This document shows positions 11,459 to 31,715 of a DNA stretch of 64,000 bases, in pieces. The stretch comes from Rhodanobacter sp. Lineage in GTDB: Bacteria > Pseudomonadota > Gammaproteobacteria > Xanthomonadales > Rhodanobacteraceae. Position numbers and translations under genes: made by a program. The stretch's first letter is position 1. Each line of letters starts with the position of its first letter. The stretch covers positions 1 through 64,000 of the forward strand of contig SCRM01000016.1 of the NCBI GenBank assembly GCA_004298045.1, in the 5' to 3' direction. Below the pieces are notes generated by a model that was not told where the DNA came from, searched no databases, and saw only the letters and a list, made by a program, of their open reading frames with translations.

Positions 11459-11529
11459 GGTTTGCGCGAGTCTCCGGTTGCCCTGCGTGAAGTGTGCCAC
11501 CTGCCCGAACCGCGTGCAGCGCCGGCGTT

Positions 11530-12819
11530 TCAGGCGCCGGGCCGCATCACCTCGTCGAAACTCAAGTCGAGGGTCGACGTGTTGGCGTGATCGGCCACCC
11601 ATTCGGCAACCTGGTCTTCCATCACGCGATTCTGCAGGCCGCTCATCAGCTGGGGGTCGCCGTTGTAAAGTTCAACCACCTTCTCCGGCTCCTCGTAGGT
11701 CGAAGCGATGGCCGCAAGCTGCTCGGCCACGCGCTTGCGGTCGATCTTGAGCTCCTGCTTGCGGGCGATTTCGCCCATCACGAGGCCCGCAACCACGCGT
11801 TTGCGCGCCGCCGGTACCGCGGCATCAACCAGCGCCTGCGGTGGCTGTTGGCCGCGCGGCACGTTGTTTGCCGCCAAGGCGCGCGCCTCGGACTGCACCA
11901 TCAGATTTGGCACCTCGAGCGTGGCATACGCACTGGCAAGCTGTTCCGCCACCTCGGCCTTGAGCCGCCCCATCAGCGCCGCCTTGAGCTCGCGGTCCAG
12001 GTTTGCGCGCACCTCCTTGCGGAAATGCTCAAGGTCGCCATCAGCGATGCCGAACAGTTTCGCAAACTCCGCATTCACCTCCGGCAGCTTCGGCTCCTGC
12101 ACCTTGACGATCTTGAAACTGACGTGCGCGGTCTGCCCCGCCAGCTTCTCGTTGCGGAAGTCGGCCGGAAACGCGATCTCCGCCTCGTAGCTGTCATCCG
12201 CCTTGCGGCCCACCAGCGCGTCATCGAGCGCCTTGAACAGGTTGCCGGCGCCCAGCACGCTGCCGGCCCGTTCCAACCCCTCGGCCGGGAAGCGGTAATC
12301 GCCCGCCTGCGCGGCATACTCGAACATCACGAAATCGCCCTCGGCCGAAGCGCGGTCAACCAGCTCGAAACTGCGCCGCTGCTGGCGCAACGTCTCCAGC
12401 ATCTTTTCAATATCGGCGTCGCCCACGGTTGCTACCGGGCGCTTGATTTCCAACGTCGCGACGTCGATCTCCGGAAATTGCGGCATCACCTCGAAGGTGG
12501 CGGTGTAGGCAATTTCGCCATTCTCCGGCTTGCCGGTGGTATCGATGGCCGGGTTCGCAACCGGCTGCAGCTTTTCCTGCGTCACCGCTTCGCGCAGCGT
12601 GCTGCCGATCAGGTCGGACAGCACCTCGCCACGCACCTGTTCGCCAAAACGCTGCTGAATGACCCTGACCGGCACCTTGCCGGGGCGGAACCCCTTGAGG
12701 CGTACGGTGCGACCAAGCTCGGCAATGCGCGCATCCACCTGGGTCTCATAGCGCTCCGCGGGAAACTTCACCGTGAGCTTGCGCCCGAGCGTGCCCGTGT
12801 TTTCAACCGAAACCTGCAT
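11530..12819 (-). CDS. tig: Trigger factor
   Basis: Ribosome-associated chaperone with peptidyl-prolyl isomerase activity. The 429-residue protein has the ribosome-binding domain with the signature [12 protein letters not shown] at residues about 43-54, the FKBP-type isomerase domain (residues about 150-245) and the C-terminal chaperone arms. The ATG at 12819 ([20 protein letters not shown]) matches family starts. It heads tig-clpP-clpX. The 82-base leader after tRNA-Leu contains a 9-bp inverted repeat (GTCGTGGCA/TGCCACGAC). Confidence 0.96.
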
Positions 12820-12901
12820 GTCGTCTCCTGGAACCCGATGTGTGATGGCGCCCGTCGTCGTGGCATGACCGCCGACGCGCGCCGAAAAACCTGCCACGAC
12901 C

Positions 12902-12987
12902 TGGTGCGAAAGGCGGGACTCGAACCCGCACGGGGGTTACCCGCCAGAACCTAAATCTGGTGCGTCTACCAGTTCCGCCACTTTCGC
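12902..12987 (-). tRNA. tRNA-Leu (TAG)
   Basis: An 86-base class II tRNA with acceptor GCGAAAG/CTTTCGC, anticodon loop ATTTAGGTT (anticodon TAG), a long variable arm and an encoded CCA. It lies 152 bases past the terminator that ends the other tRNA genes and 82 bases before tig, so it may be transcribed with tig. Confidence 0.96.
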
Positions 12988-13136
12988 CTGATGGTGCACC
13001 GGAGCAATCGACCGCCCGCGGGATACGGCCACCTAAGTCGATGATAACCGGCGCTAAAGCGTGTCATTGTACGGTTGCACAAACGCACAGCACAAGCGTC
13101 CGTGCACCGCGCGACGACCTGCCCACGCCCCAACGC

Positions 13137-13162
13137 AAAACGCCGGCCACGAAGGTCGGCGT
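13137..13162 (-). terminator. Terminator downstream of tRNA-Lys
   Basis: On the minus strand, stem ACGCCGACC pairs with GGCCGGCGT (one wobble) and is followed by TTTTG. It ends the five-tRNA transcript about 10 bases past tRNA-Lys and before tRNA-Leu. Confidence 0.75.
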
Positions 13163-13171
13163 CTGCAAAAT

Positions 13172-13247
<76 letters not shown>

Positions 13248-13261
13248 TGAAACTTGAATTT

Positions 13262-13338
13262 TGGGGTGGGCGGCGGGATTCGAACCCACGACAACCGGAA
13301 TCACAATCCGGGACTCTACCAGCTGAGCTACGCCCACC
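13262..13338 (-). tRNA. tRNA-His (GTG)
   Basis: A 77-base gene starting with the histidine-specific extra G (GGTGGGCG). The anticodon loop is TTGTGAT (anticodon GTG) and the 3' end is CCCACCCCA. Confidence 0.96.
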
Positions 13339-13351
13339 ATGAAACCGTGAC

Positions 13352-13428
13352 TGGTGCGCCCGACAGGACTCGAACCTGTAACCGTCGGCTTAGAAGGCCG
13401 ATGCTCTATCCGGTTGAGCTACGGGCGC
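13352..13428 (-). tRNA. tRNA-Arg (TCT)
   Basis: A 77-base gene with acceptor GCGCCCG/CGGGCGC, anticodon loop CTTCTAA (anticodon TCT), T-arm GGTTCGAGTCC and an encoded CCA. It reads the rare codon AGA. Confidence 0.96.
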
Positions 13429-13450
13429 AAGGCCCTTGCGGCTGATGCAG

Positions 13451-13527
13451 TGGTCGGGGTAGAGGGATTCGAACCCCCGACTTTTGCGTCCCAAACGCAA
13501 CGCTCTACCAGACTGAGCTATACCCCG
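13451..13527 (-). tRNA. tRNA-Pro (TGG)
   Basis: A 77-base gene with acceptor CGGGGTA/TACCCCG, anticodon loop TTTGGGA (anticodon TGG), T-arm GGTTCGAATCC and an encoded CCA. Confidence 0.96.
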
Positions 13528-13699
13528 AACGAGCCCGCGACAGCCTTTGCTTCGGAACCTTGAAGTGCTGCGGATGGCAAACTGTCAAGCAACCCGCAAC
13601 ACCGTTCAGGGCACCTTGCCCACCATCACCGCAGTTGGCCTCCTGCCAAGCCTTGCGGTTGCGTGCCGACGCGCATGCGCCTCGTCACGCAATACAAAA

Positions 13700-13776
13700 T
13701 GGTGCGCCCGGAGAGATTCGAACTCCCGACCACCTAGTTCGTAGCCAGGTACTCTATCCAACTGAGCTACGGGCGC
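13700..13776 (-). tRNA. tRNA-Arg (ACG)
   Basis: A 77-base gene with acceptor GCGCCCG/CGGGCGC, anticodon loop CTACGAA (anticodon ACG), T-arm AGTTCGAATCT and an encoded CCA. It is the promoter-proximal gene of the cluster and is separated from tRNA-Pro by a 172-base spacer in which I saw nothing. Confidence 0.96.
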
Positions 13777-19036: not shown

Positions 19037-19738
19037 TCAGCCAATACCGCCGAGCAGCGGCACGAAGCTCACCGGACCGAGTTCTTCCTGCGCGAAATCG
19101 CCCTGGCCGTCGCCGCGCAAACGCAGCAGCGTTTGGCTGCTGGGCGAGCCAACCGGGGCGACCAGCACGCCGGTCGGGCTGAGCTGTTCGAGGATGCGGG
19201 TGGGAATGGTGTCGCCAGCCGCGGTAAGGATGATTGCGTCGAACGGCGCCTCGTCGGCCCAGCCAAGCTTGCCGTCATCGTAACGGGAACGGATGTTGGT
19301 GAGACCAAGCTGGCGAAAACGACGCCGCGCCTGGCGCAGCAGCTCCTCGATCCGCTCGACCGTATACACCTGCGCCATCAGTGCGGCGAGGATCACCGTT
19401 TGGTAGCCAGAGCCGGTACCGATTTCGAGCACCCGCCCGGGCCTTTCGCCGCGGGCATCGAAATGCTCGAGCAGTGCCTCGGTCATGCGTGCCACCACCC
19501 ACGGCTGGGAAATCGTCTGCCCCTGCCCGATCGGCAGCGCGGTGTTCTCGTAGGCGCGCGCATGCAGCGCCTGGTCGATGAAATGATGGCGCGGCGTGTT
19601 GCGCATGACGTCGATGACGCGTGCATCGCGAATGCCGCTTTCCCGCAACTGCGCCGCCAGCCGATCGCGCGCACGTTGCGAGGTCAGACCTTCGCCCTTC
19701 AAGGCGGACGGTGGCAGCGGATGGATGTTCATCATCAT
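19037..19738 (-). CDS. pcm: Protein-L-isoaspartate O-methyltransferase
   Basis: Methylates isoaspartyl residues to start repair of damaged proteins. The 233-residue protein shows [20 protein letters not shown], the substrate loop [15 protein letters not shown] and the SAM loop [15 protein letters not shown]. Three consecutive ATG codons start at 19738; the first overlaps the surE stop (ATGA) and is probably used. It is coupled to surE, as in E. coli and most gammaproteobacteria. Confidence 0.95.
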
Positions 19739-20523
19739 GTGACCCGATCCGCCCGTGTCGCCATGTCTGCGGTCAGCGACTGCATCCAACTGCTGACTTT
19801 CTCCAGCGCCTGAAAGCGCGTGAGGTCGACATGGATCGGGGTCACCGACACGTAGCCGCGCCGTACCGCGTTGAAATCGGTGCCGGGACCATCGTCATCC
19901 ACCTCGCCAACCGGGCCGATCCACCAGATCGGGTTGCCGCGCGGATCGGTGCGCGCAATGCACGGTGCGGCGCGATGGCGGCGCCCGAGCCGGGTCACTT
20001 CAAAACCGTGGATCTCGGCCCACGGCCGATCGGGCACATTGACATTGAGAATGGTGTCGGCTGGCAGCGGATCGACCACCAGGCGGCGCGTCAGCAACAG
20101 CACCGCCTTGGCCGCCGATTCGAAATGCTCGCCGCGGTGATCGCTGCTCACCAGCGAGATCGCAATGGCTGGCAGGCCGAGAAAGCGGCCTTCCATCGCC
20201 GCCGAAACCGTGCCGGAATAGATCACGTCGTCGCCCAGGTTGGCGGCGTTGTTGATGCCGGAAACCACGATGTCGGGTTCCCGATCGAGCAAACCCGACA
20301 GGGCGAGATGCACACAATCGGTTGGCGTACCGGCCACGCGATAGCGGCCATCGTCCAGCCGCGAGACGCGCACCGGCAGATCGAGCGTCAACGAATTGCT
20401 GGCGCCGGAGCGGTCGCGATCGGGCGCCACCACGATGACTTCGCCCAGTTCGGCCAGCCGCGCGGCAAGCACGTGGATGCCTTTCGCATCAACTCCGTCG
20501 TCGTTGCTGACCAATACCCGCAT
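19735..20523 (-). CDS. surE: 5'/3'-nucleotidase SurE
   Basis: Metal-dependent survival phosphatase active on nucleoside monophosphates and short polyphosphate. The 262-residue protein starts [16 protein letters not shown], where NDDG carries metal ligands. It continues with [16 protein letters not shown] and [21 protein letters not shown], the family signature. The ATG at 20523 was chosen from this motif; a longer open frame upstream has no similarity. It is the first gene of surE-pcm-yqaA-nlpD and divergent from the Smr gene. Confidence 0.96.
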
Positions 20524-21295: not shown

Positions 21296-21931
21296 ATGCG
21301 CCCACTCGGCCAGCGTTTCCTGGTGATCTACACCGGCGTGCTTACCGCCGTCTTCGCCGTCACCGTCCTGGGCGGCGGCGCGACGAGCACGAAACTCGAC
21401 ACCCTGGACGTGCAACGCATCAACATCGTCGAACCAGACGGTACGCTGCGCATGGTGATCTCCGACCACGCACACCTGCCGGGCATCATCGTGAAAGGCC
21501 ACGAACACGCCTTCGACCGCCCGCAGGCGGGCCTGTTGTTCTACAACGACGAGGGTTCGGAGACTGGCGGCCTGATCTTCGGTGGGCATCGCAACGCCAA
21601 AGGCGAGGTGGTGGATTCCGGTGGCAGCCTGTCGTTCGACCGCTACAACGCCAACCAGATCGTCCAGTTGCTCGGGGTGGACGATCATGAGGACCGCATG
21701 GCCGGCCTCGCCGTATCGGACAGCCAGGAGAACGGGCAAGGACACCGGCGAATCTGGGTCGGGCGTGACGGCGATGGCGTCGCCAGGCTCGCCCTGATGG
21801 ACGGCGCGGGGCATCCGCGACTGCTGCTGGAAGTACCCGACACCGGCACGCCGAGCATGGCTTTTCTCGATAGCGACGGCAAGGTCATGCAGCGCATCGC
21901 GCCGATGGCCGGTTCAAATAGGGGTCGATGA
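21296..21931 (+). CDS. Conserved hypothetical protein with N-terminal membrane anchor
   Basis: Not recognised as a named family. The 211-residue chain has one hydrophobic N-terminal segment (residues about 9-27, FLVIYTGVLTAVFAVTVLGG), then a soluble part rich in Asp, Gly and His that looks like repeated short beta-hairpins (RINIVEPDGTLRMVISD, AGLLFYNDEGSETGGLIF, RIWVGRDGDGVARLALMD, PSMAFLDSDGKVMQRI). It is probably anchored and mostly outside the cytoplasm. An AACGAGGA ribosome-binding site precedes the ATG. Its last 18 bases overlap the 3' end of convergent truD. Confidence 0.7.
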   Translation: MRPLGQRFLVIYTGVLTAVFAVTVLGGGATSTKLDTLDVQRINIVEPDGTLRMVISDHAHLPGIIVKGHEHAFDRPQAGLLFYNDEGSETGGLIFGGHRNAKGEVVDSGGSLSFDRYNANQIVQLLGVDDHEDRMAGLAVSDSQENGQGHRRIWVGRDGDGVARLALMDGAGHPRLLLEVPDTGTPSMAFLDSDGKVMQRIAPMAGSNRGR

Positions 21932-22936
21932 GGCCAGTTCGCGCACTACCACCGTCGCGTACGCGCCGGCTGGCAGTTCGAAGGAGAGTTCGAGCGCAGC
22001 GTCGGCAAGCCAGCGCCAGTGCAACGCCTTCGGCAACAGGCGCAATGGGCGGCGCTCCTGATCCATGCGGGCGGCAGCAATGCCCTCGGTGAGATCCGCA
22101 TGGGCGGCCGCGACTTCGCGCTCGAGTGCACCAGCCTCGCCCGTGGCAGGCGGCTCGCCCTGCCCCCACAGCGGGCCGGAAGGATGGATGTCACCTTCGG
22201 CCAGGCGCCGTTGCAGTTCCGCGGTGAACCGCTCCGGGCCGAACCACGAGCGCGAGCCGGCGAGCGACCAGATTTCGCCGTCGAGCGGCGCGTCCCAGCT
22301 GCCTGCTTCGACCCGGCGCGCCAGGACGGCATTGAAGATCTGCGAACGCGCGGCCGACAACAGGAACCCGCGCTTGCTGCGTTCGACCCGGCGCCCGGCG
22401 AACATGGCGCGCGCCGCCACAAGGTTGCCGCCCTCGCGCCCAAACCGCTGCTCGCCGAAATAGTTGGGCACGCCGCGCTGGGCGATCTCGCCGAGGACGG
22501 CCTCGGCGCGCGCGTGGTCGCCCTGCACCTCCCGCAACACCAGCACGAAACGGTTGCCGCGCAAGGCGCCGCGCTTCAGTTTGCGACTGTGGCGGGTGGC
22601 GGCCAGCACCTTCACCTCAGGGTGCGGGAACGCCGCCCAGTCAGGGTCGGGTTTGCCGGCCAGCTGCACCGAAAAGGTCTGCCGGGTTACAGCGTGGCGA
22701 TCCTTCAGCCCGGCATAACCGACGGCCACTGGCGGTACGCCGGCGAAGCGCGCCAGTTCGCGCGCTACCCAGTCGGTGTTGGTGTCGCGTTTTTCCACCC
22801 ACAGCAAGGCATGCTCGCCATGGCCGTCGGCGTCGTAGCCGAGGATTTCCTCAACCTGGAAATCCTCCGGCGTGCTGCGCAAGTGCGCACGCAGCGGCGG
22901 CATGCCGCAGGCAAACGGAAGTTCGGTTTCGCTCAT
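21914..22936 (-). CDS. truD: tRNA pseudouridine(13) synthase TruD
   Basis: Makes pseudouridine 13 in tRNA-Glu. The 340-residue protein has the catalytic motif VGYAGLKDRHAVTRQTFSV (catalytic Asp in KDRHA), an N-terminal PEDFQVEEI stretch and the TRUD insertion domain with PNYFGEQRFGREGGN. The ATG at 22936 lies 24 bases after the ispD stop. In related genomes ispF normally separates ispD and truD; it is absent here. Confidence 0.95.
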   Translation of the reverse strand: MSETELPFACGMPPLRAHLRSTPEDFQVEEILGYDADGHGEHALLWVEKRDTNTDWVARELARFAGVPPVAVGYAGLKDRHAVTRQTFSVQLAGKPDPDWAAFPHPEVKVLAATRHSRKLKRGALRGNRFVLVLREVQGDHARAEAVLGEIAQRGVPNYFGEQRFGREGGNLVAARAMFAGRRVERSKRGFLLSAARSQIFNAVLARRVEAGSWDAPLDGEIWSLAGSRSWFGPERFTAELQRRLAEGDIHPSGPLWGQGEPPATGEAGALEREVAAAHADLTEGIAAARMDQERRPLRLLPKALHWRWLADAALELSFELPAGAYATVVVRELASSTPI

Positions 22937-22960
22937 GATCGTTCCCGGTGTCAGGCGGGC

Positions 22961-23656
22961 TTACGCCTTCCTGGCCAACAAAAAACCGGCATAGGCGAGG
23001 TCGTCCGGCGATACCACCCGGATGTTGTCGGCCGCCCCTTCGACCAGCAGCGGACGAAAGCCGGCGATCTCCATCGCCATCGCCTCGTCGCTGACCGTCC
23101 AGCCGCGATTGGCGACGGCCTGCATCACGCGGGTCAGCTCACCGCGGCGGAACATCTGCGGGGTGAGCGCAAGCCAGCGGCGGTCGAGCCGCTCGGTGAG
23201 CTCGCTGCAGCGCTGGTCGTTGGCGCACTTGAGCATGTCGCGCAGCGGCAGGGCCAGCAGGCCGCCACCGGCCGGCGCGGCCTCGGTGATCAATCGCTCA
23301 ATGTCGGCGCCACGCACGTACGGGCGCAGCGGATCGTGCACCAACACGAAGTCGCGCTCGCCGACCGCCTCCGGCAAGGCGCGCAACCCGGCCAGCACGG
23401 CATCACAGCGCGAAAAGCCGCCATCGGTGGTCAGCACCGGCTTGCCGTGCAGGTGATCAACCGCCAACCCGTGTGCGTCGTTGCGATCCAATGCCACCAT
23501 CAGGCCCGCCACCCGCGGGTGCGCTGCGAGACAGCCGAGCGTCTGTTCGACCACCGTGCTGCCGCCAAGCGGCAGGCGGGTGGGCGGAAGGTCGCTGCCC
23601 AGCGGCACCACCTGTCCGGCTGTCGGCACCACGCACCACACGGTTTCCACACTCAC
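22961..23656 (-). CDS. ispD: IspD-like cytidylyltransferase with degenerate active site
   Basis: By position and fold this is 2-C-methyl-D-erythritol 4-phosphate cytidylyltransferase (MEP isoprenoid pathway): 231 residues, VWCVVPTAG start, FVLVHDPLRPYVRGAD, LALPLRDMLK, WLALTPQMFRRGEL and DEAMAMEIAGF. Several family residues are changed. The triphosphate loop PAAGxGxRM reads PTAGQVVPL, so the catalytic Arg (Arg20 of E. coli) is missing. PKQY reads PPTR, so Lys27 is missing. NIKVT near the end reads NIRVV. HDAARP is HDPLRP. Start is GTG at 23656, overlapping the ftsB stop (GTGA). Activity in the MEP pathway is doubtful. Confidence 0.75.
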   Translation of the reverse strand: MSVETVWCVVPTAGQVVPLGSDLPPTRLPLGGSTVVEQTLGCLAAHPRVAGLMVALDRNDAHGLAVDHLHGKPVLTTDGGFSRCDAVLAGLRALPEAVGERDFVLVHDPLRPYVRGADIERLITEAAPAGGGLLALPLRDMLKCANDQRCSELTERLDRRWLALTPQMFRRGELTRVMQAVANRGWTVSDEAMAMEIAGFRPLLVEGAADNIRVVSPDDLAYAGFLLARKA

Positions 23657-23991
23657 TGTTGCGGCGCCCCCGGGCGCACCGGCGGGGGCAGCGGCAAGGT
23701 GCTGCTGGCGCCCGCAGGTTGATTGTCGATCTGGTAGAAGGTTTCGCCGGACTTGATGAGACCGAGCCCGGTACGTGCGCGCGCTTCGATCGCCTGGTCG
23801 CCGTGCTTCAAGTCGGCGACGTCGGCGGCCAGCGCCTGGTTGCGTTGCTGCAGGCGGGTATTCTCGTCGACCTGCTTCTTGATCGACACCCGCATTGCAT
23901 CGACCTCGTGCATGCCGCCGTGCGCGGACCACAGTTTCATCTGCAGTCCGATCAGGAGGGCAAGCAACAACAGCGCGACCCAACGCAGCAT
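23653..23991 (-). CDS. ftsB: Cell division protein FtsB
   Basis: Bitopic septum protein that forms the FtsQLB complex. The 112-residue protein has one N-terminal transmembrane helix (LRWVALLLLALLIGLQMKLW, residues 2-21), a coiled coil (residues about 33-68, VDENTRLQQRNQALAADVADL) and the conserved tail region ARTGLGLIKSGETFYQI. The C-terminus adds a Pro-rich stretch. It lies 12 bases after eno and overlaps ispD by 4 bases. Confidence 0.95.
   Translation of the reverse strand: MLRWVALLLLALLIGLQMKLWSAHGGMHEVDAMRVSIKKQVDENTRLQQRNQALAADVADLKHGDQAIEARARTGLGLIKSGETFYQIDNQPAGASSTLPLPPPVRPGAPQQ

Positions 23992-24003: not shown

Positions 24004-31715
<7,712 letters not shown>

Follow-up and report, generated by a model that had tools for sequence, protein, structure and literature searches.

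How does a bacterium make its isoprenoids if the ispD of its MEP pathway has lost catalytic residues and the ispF next to it is missing, and why is such an ispD still there? The question arises from a gene string in Rhodanobacter sp. The window, i.e., the whole stretch of DNA that was analysed, comprises 64,000 nucleotides of contig C3 of a draft genome (G000; 3.26 Mb, 22 contigs, rated 95.91% complete). On its minus strand enolase is followed by ftsB, ispD and truD, then by surE and pcm:

24004-25365, minus strand: enolase, identified from its translation.
23653-23991, minus strand: ftsB (NCBIfam NF002058), whose stop overlaps the ispD start.
22961-23656, minus strand: ispD relic, 231 aa, an IspD homologue that is probably catalytically dead (PF01128 149.7 bits, 14 of 52 conserved columns changed, AF2 pLDDT 92.7).
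22937-22960, minus strand: ispD-truD junction, 24 nt, with ispF missing; in same-genus loci ispF is present between the two genes.
21914-22936, minus strand: truD (NCBIfam NF002153).
19735-20523, minus strand: surE, further downstream in this string (NCBIfam TIGR00087).
19037-19738, minus strand: pcm, encoding protein-L-isoaspartate O-methyltransferase (NCBIfam TIGR00080).

The sequence-only reading had stated that truD follows ispD after 24 bases, without the ispF that normally sits between them in this group. Both statements hold. The distance from the ispD stop to the truD ATG is 24 nt by the coordinates, and in all eight same-genus loci measured ispF separates the two genes, ending 12-343 nt before truD.

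Isoprenoid genes in the genome, the genus and the family

Genome-wide, PF02542 finds no ispF, and dxr, ispG and ispH yield no match either. PF01128 has two matches, the relic and a 36.4-bit one, which is GlmU and thus not a second ispD or an ispDF fusion. It had been proposed that IspD and IspF moved elsewhere; with no match to a second ispD, an ispF or an ispDF in a genome rated 95.9% complete, this finds no support. Elsewhere in the genus, where 14 genomes were searched, ispF is present in 13, a true IspD in 13, dxr in 14, ispG in 13 and ispH in all six tested. The exceptions are G014 for ispD and ispF, a draft with a completeness of 92%, and G011 for ispG, a draft with 85%.

A replacement of the MEP by the mevalonate pathway had also been considered. 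This idea gains support from the absence of dxr, ispG and ispH matches together with a mevalonate cluster on the same contig as ispD (C3:182903-187907; L074 10904-15908), although no HMG-CoA synthase was found. HMGR lies about 160 kb from ispD. The cluster consists of MVD, a GHMP kinase, a 756-aa fusion of HMGR with mevalonate kinase, and an IPP isomerase of type I (IDI). HMGR, MVK, MVD and the isomerase score above their NCBIfam cut-offs (TIGR00532 403.1, TIGR00549 234.6, TIGR01240 277.9 and NF002995 177.6 bits, respectively). The GHMP kinase best fits phosphomevalonate kinase, and with 67.6 bits it stays below the TIGR01220 cut-off of 165.7.

HMG-CoA synthase has no match in G000, neither to PF08540 nor to profile A1, which was built from four divergent family members. 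Among the 31 HMGR genomes of the family that lack IspD (see below), 29 match PF08540 or the family profile, one of them (G074) by a 44-residue fragment, and G094 and G070 match neither; of the 12 genomes with both pathways none does. The PF08540 matches in relatives are often weak; of 24 genomes with a match, 17 exceed the cut-off. Two of the four translated PF08540 loci were scanned, and both resemble HMG-CoA synthases at scores below the equivalog cut-offs. L149, L153, L156 and L157, all from relatives with HMGR and without IspD, encode a divergent HMG-CoA synthase, about 490 aa long, that scores well below the NCBIfam equivalog cut-offs. In the window's genome, either another kind of synthase does the work, or HMG-CoA comes from elsewhere, e.g., from the degradation of leucine, or an assembly gap hides the gene.

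HMGR was detected in 44 of the 233 family genomes searched. In the genus it is confined to one genome of 15, the window's own, and absent from the 14 others. Sorted by PF01128 score, the 44 comprise 31 genomes without a true IspD, a class made up of low-scoring or no matches and including G074, 12 with an IspD of at least 202 bits, and the window's genome with its altered IspD. IspH accompanies HMGR in 12 of the 12 genomes with IspD and in 1 of the 31 without (G138).

For a tree of HMGR, 31 of 40 loci were used; three were too unlike the others and were dropped, which left 28, with G094, of the same genus as G098, outside the tree. The window's HMGR is sister to that of G098, a member of another genus (100/97). 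Next to this pair stand the copies of G213 and G215, from a third genus (98/94), and all four sit inside a ten-row group that otherwise belongs to a fourth genus. This placing among other genera, together with the lack of HMGR in the rest of the genus (14 genomes), argues for a horizontal acquisition: the cluster has probably moved horizontally within the family. Its presence alone does not spoil IspD, since G098, G213 and G215 carry the cluster and their IspDs (L117, L127 and L120, respectively) keep R20, K27 and K213. L117 has a single contact change, G82A.

Some side observations belong here. A scan of L074 has HMGR running in one frame into the mevalonate kinase domain (11487-13757), and all 28 HMGRs in the tree have frames of 744-762 aa. 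In G213, G215, G133 and G031 (L173, L174, L176 and L076), the cluster is placed between the same flanking genes, which we take, from their looks, to be hopanoid-biosynthesis genes; these flanks are absent from the window's genome. G055, of the same order (L128), combines HMGR and an HMG-CoA synthase with ispF and an IspD that exceeds the TIGR00453 cut-off and keeps R20, K27 and K213, although dxr, ispG and ispH have no match there. An IspD-like protein of G074 (139.8 bits) was considered as a second relic and rejected. A fusion of a cytidylyltransferase with a short-chain dehydrogenase (L131 375-1760), it resembles ribitol-phosphate cytidylyltransferases; the IspD and ribitol-phosphate models give it almost equal scores, both under cut-off.

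The active site and the fold of the relic

The relic is a homologue of IspD over its whole length, as it covers positions 2-220 of the 221 of PF01128. In a sequence search of the PDB, its best matches include chain 1i52, the IspD of E. coli. It nevertheless stays below the equivalog cut-off of TIGR00453 (144.5 vs 181.3 bits), which the comparison IspDs of L128 and L117 exceed (207.1 and 209.2 bits).

That key catalytic residues are missing had been read from the motifs PTAGQVVP, PPTR and NIRVV, and a comparison of columns bears this out. In 59 other IspDs, 52 columns are conserved to at least 97%. The relic deviates at 14 of them, which is more than chance: A14T, G18V, R20P, K27P, Q28T, S88A, A107P, A108L, T140M, R157L, A177V, L178M, K213R and T215V (E. 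coli numbering, here and below). P13, A15, G16, G82, D106, R109 and T165 are kept, and the motifs TPQMF and DEAMAME are present, as had been noticed before. The main lesions are the following:

23576-23626, minus strand: P-loop lesion, residues 11-27, including A14T, G18V, R20P, K27P and Q28T (in-frame codon comparison with five IspDs of the genus; column comparison).
23327-23332, minus strand: A107P and A108L at the end of the ribose-contact strand, VHDAAR to VHDPLR (column comparison and contacts from the literature).
23234-23236, minus strand: T140M (column comparison).
23012-23020, minus strand: K213R and T215V in the L2-loop, NIKVT to NIRVV (column comparison and contacts from the literature).

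T140 presumably has a role in MEP binding. For the CTP side, a passage of PMC5099578 on the B. subtilis enzyme lists contacts by the equivalents of P13, A15, G16, G18, R20, K27, G82, S88, A107, A108 and K213, and gives the equivalent of T215 as the partner of R20. Lys27 and Lys213 are described in a passage of PMC5020098 as critical for the transition state. Transferred to E. coli numbering, in part by an offset of our own, 8 of 13 listed CTP-contact positions are changed in the relic, including R20P, K27P and K213R; the 13 include D106, which is kept and which the passage names as a P-loop contact, not as a CTP contact. Among other genus-invariant columns only 22 of 113 are changed (Fisher p 0.0024). 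If four MEP-side residues from the literature are added, the counts become 10 of 17 vs 20 of 109 (p 0.0009). We strongly infer from these replacements that the relic has lost IspD catalysis. No cytidylate transfer is to be expected, because the residues in question are all replaced: the arginine and the two lysines that hold the transition state and the phosphates of CTP, the threonine partner of the arginine, and the cytosine-contacting serine.

The fold had been said to remain, and prediction agrees. From 51 aligned sequences, of the window and of other loci, AlphaFold2 yields a model with a pLDDT of 92.7 and a pTM of 0.91, the best Foldseek match of which is E. coli IspD (1ini, TM 0.87/0.89). 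The relic should therefore have kept the IspD fold. That it is stable does not follow from a good model, however, since the alignment consists mostly of intact IspDs.

Retention, decay and other explanations

The most likely course of events is the following. The lineage would have acquired the mevalonate gene cluster, which would now supply the isoprenoids. The MEP genes ispF, dxr, ispG and ispH would have been lost, ispF by a clean deletion, and ispD would have survived between ftsB and truD as a dead but folded protein. Selection would act on this protein for a non-catalytic job, e.g., a protein contact, or because its translation yields a soluble link in the ftsB-ispD-truD string. That the MEP pathway was swapped for the mevalonate pathway and IspD catalysis lost with it, we consider highly probable. 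For the complete statement, i.e., swap, dead IspD and retention as a folded protein for a non-enzymatic reason, the scales tip just to the affirmative side. Pathway replacement and a repurposed relic had been offered as separate possibilities. They do not exclude each other, and both are probably true.

The rates of change speak for retention; the whole case is built on one sequence from one draft genome. On the relic's own branch, dS is 0.47 for ispD, 0.50 for truD and 0.60 for ftsB. Being like its neighbours in this respect, ispD was inherited together with them. The corresponding omega values are 0.57 (bootstrap 0.40-0.84), 0.16 and 0.10. In amino acids, the relic is 55-60% identical to 12 IspDs of the genus, which are at least 73% identical to each other. 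The changes are distributed unevenly. Own-branch dN is 0.67 (0.39-1.27) for a wider set of 24 active-site codons, for which some bootstrap replicates are undefined (dS saturation, small set), vs 0.23 (0.19-0.29) for the other 207 codons. The active site has thus kept up with the neutral rate or exceeded it, and the 207 remaining codons have changed roughly half as fast as neutral. Because the active site evolved unconstrained while the rest remained partly constrained, retention as a folded pseudoenzyme is the likeliest explanation. The same contrast favours the earlier suggestion that the relic was repurposed within its operon, without proving it.

The main rival is slow decay inside a coupled operon. 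MEP would have been replaced and ispD would be on its way out, the open reading frame persisting because it is translated between ftsB and truD, where stops or frameshifts would be polar on truD-surE-pcm, or because there has been too little time. This is a serious possibility, though hardly one to bet on. The gene string is tight: ispD starts with a GTG that overlaps the ftsB stop as GTGA, truD is only 24 nt away, and between 21800 and 24100 neither a terminator-like site nor a promoter-like site on the minus strand was found. Omega is raised throughout the gene. Outside the active site it amounts to about 0.49, compared with about 0.26 between clades, so that constraint is weaker than normal there too, and 21 of the 81 changes outside the active site are to residues seen in no other IspD, the largest share among the 17 rows compared. 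In the family, loss appears to be the usual end, as 31 of the 44 HMGR genomes have no true IspD. Also, the missing stop codons, which might be taken as proof of selection, are too weak an argument: under neutrality, the probability of no stop is 0.055-0.68, depending on the setting.

Uniform neutrality from one date on does not fit the distribution of the changes, however. By simple arithmetic, a dN of 0.23 outside the active site predicts about 0.15 within it, and 0.67 is observed. Neutral evolution was also simulated, in six settings of 300 runs each, with a protected reading frame, with as many amino-acid changes as the relic has, and with some of these drawn from ordinary tolerated ones. 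The masked HMM score of the relic, 251.6, was reached by none of the 1,800 simulations, which averaged 154-195 by setting; its unmasked score and its 15 active-site changes were each reached by one. For comparison, 15 IspDs of other genera that differ from the genus consensus at 75-124 positions were scored with this mask. They reach 221.7-286.6, so that the relic falls within their range, and they have 1-5 active-site differences. Unmasked, the relic (284.0) is below all 15. Of course, if selection merely keeps the product of a translated link soluble, the boundary to decay becomes blurred.

A changed enzyme is improbable. The relic would still be a nucleotidyltransferase, with another substrate and an active site remodelled by selection. 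The active-site dN, which is at or above the gene-wide dS, would fit, and so would the retention of P13, A15, G16, G82, D106, R109 and T165. Yet R20 and K27, which hold the triphosphate, have both become proline, and the match to the ribitol-phosphate cytidylyltransferase model is far below its cut-off (31.8 vs 166 bits). Even less probable is an intact pathway, with the missing MEP genes hidden in assembly gaps and IspD working despite its changes. About 4% of the genome may indeed be missing, and G014, the genus draft mentioned above, lacks ispD and ispF matches though it also lacks HMGR. But ispF, dxr, ispG and ispH would all four have to fall into gaps, the ispF site is closed by sequence, and the catalytic lysines are replaced. 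Finally, a sequence or assembly error in ispD, which had been named as a possible refutation, is very unlikely, even in a draft of 22 contigs: the changes affect several separate active-site elements spread along the gene, the P-loop aligns codon for codon, which rules out a local pair of frameshifts, the frame is open throughout, and the MEP genes are lost genome-wide.

To return to the pseudoenzyme, a more far-reaching version can be proposed as a tentative conjecture. IspD may have been co-opted, its fold being selected while its active site was erased, for a second, non-catalytic role in the ftsB-truD string. This role may be old and, in ordinary bacteria, hidden by catalytic necessity. 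Isoprenoids would then be made via a mevalonate cluster without a recognisable HMG-CoA synthase, perhaps fed by HMG-CoA from leucine breakdown.

Known systems and significance

With the MEP cytidylyltransferases of E. coli (1i52, 1ini) and P. aeruginosa (9gby) the relic shares the predicted fold, the position after ftsB and many structural residues. It differs in its replaced catalytic and CTP-contact residues, in its score below the TIGR00453 cut-off and in the genome around it, which is without ispF, dxr, ispG and ispH. Differences in MEP and MVA pathways between species of one genus, and partial MEP pathways, have already been published (PMC10663253, PMC13001223). A section of PMC10663253 reports the former for Cellulomonas taurus and Staphylococcus. 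The likeness is that one species of a MEP genus has MVA genes and an incomplete MEP pathway; here, in contrast, the leftover is a degenerate IspD with a partly constrained fold, and that section does not treat residues. Listeria, according to a passage of PMC13001223, likewise retains MEP genes beside MVA, namely those up to MEcDP, for the sake of MEcDP. Since dxr and ispF, unlike in Listeria, were not found here, MEcDP cannot explain the retention of ispD. The Legionella MVA pathway, described in the same paper as lacking HmgS and PmvK, resembles the present one in having MVA genes and no recognised HMG-CoA synthase; it differs in that a phosphomevalonate kinase homologue is present here. In the open-access literature we found, among the matches listed, no account of an IspD whose active site was lost after a pathway swap while its fold stayed under constraint.

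The gene-by-gene course of such a swap is hard to see. The present genome is an intermediate: ispF is cleanly gone, other MEP genes are missing, and the catalytic and the structural constraint on IspD have come apart. It also holds a warning for annotation, as a loose cut-off would score this genome as IspD-positive. The missing HMG-CoA synthase raises a separate, testable question, that of the source of HMG-CoA. IspD is a drug and herbicide target. If the relic is kept for something other than catalysis, it would point to a hidden second function of IspD.
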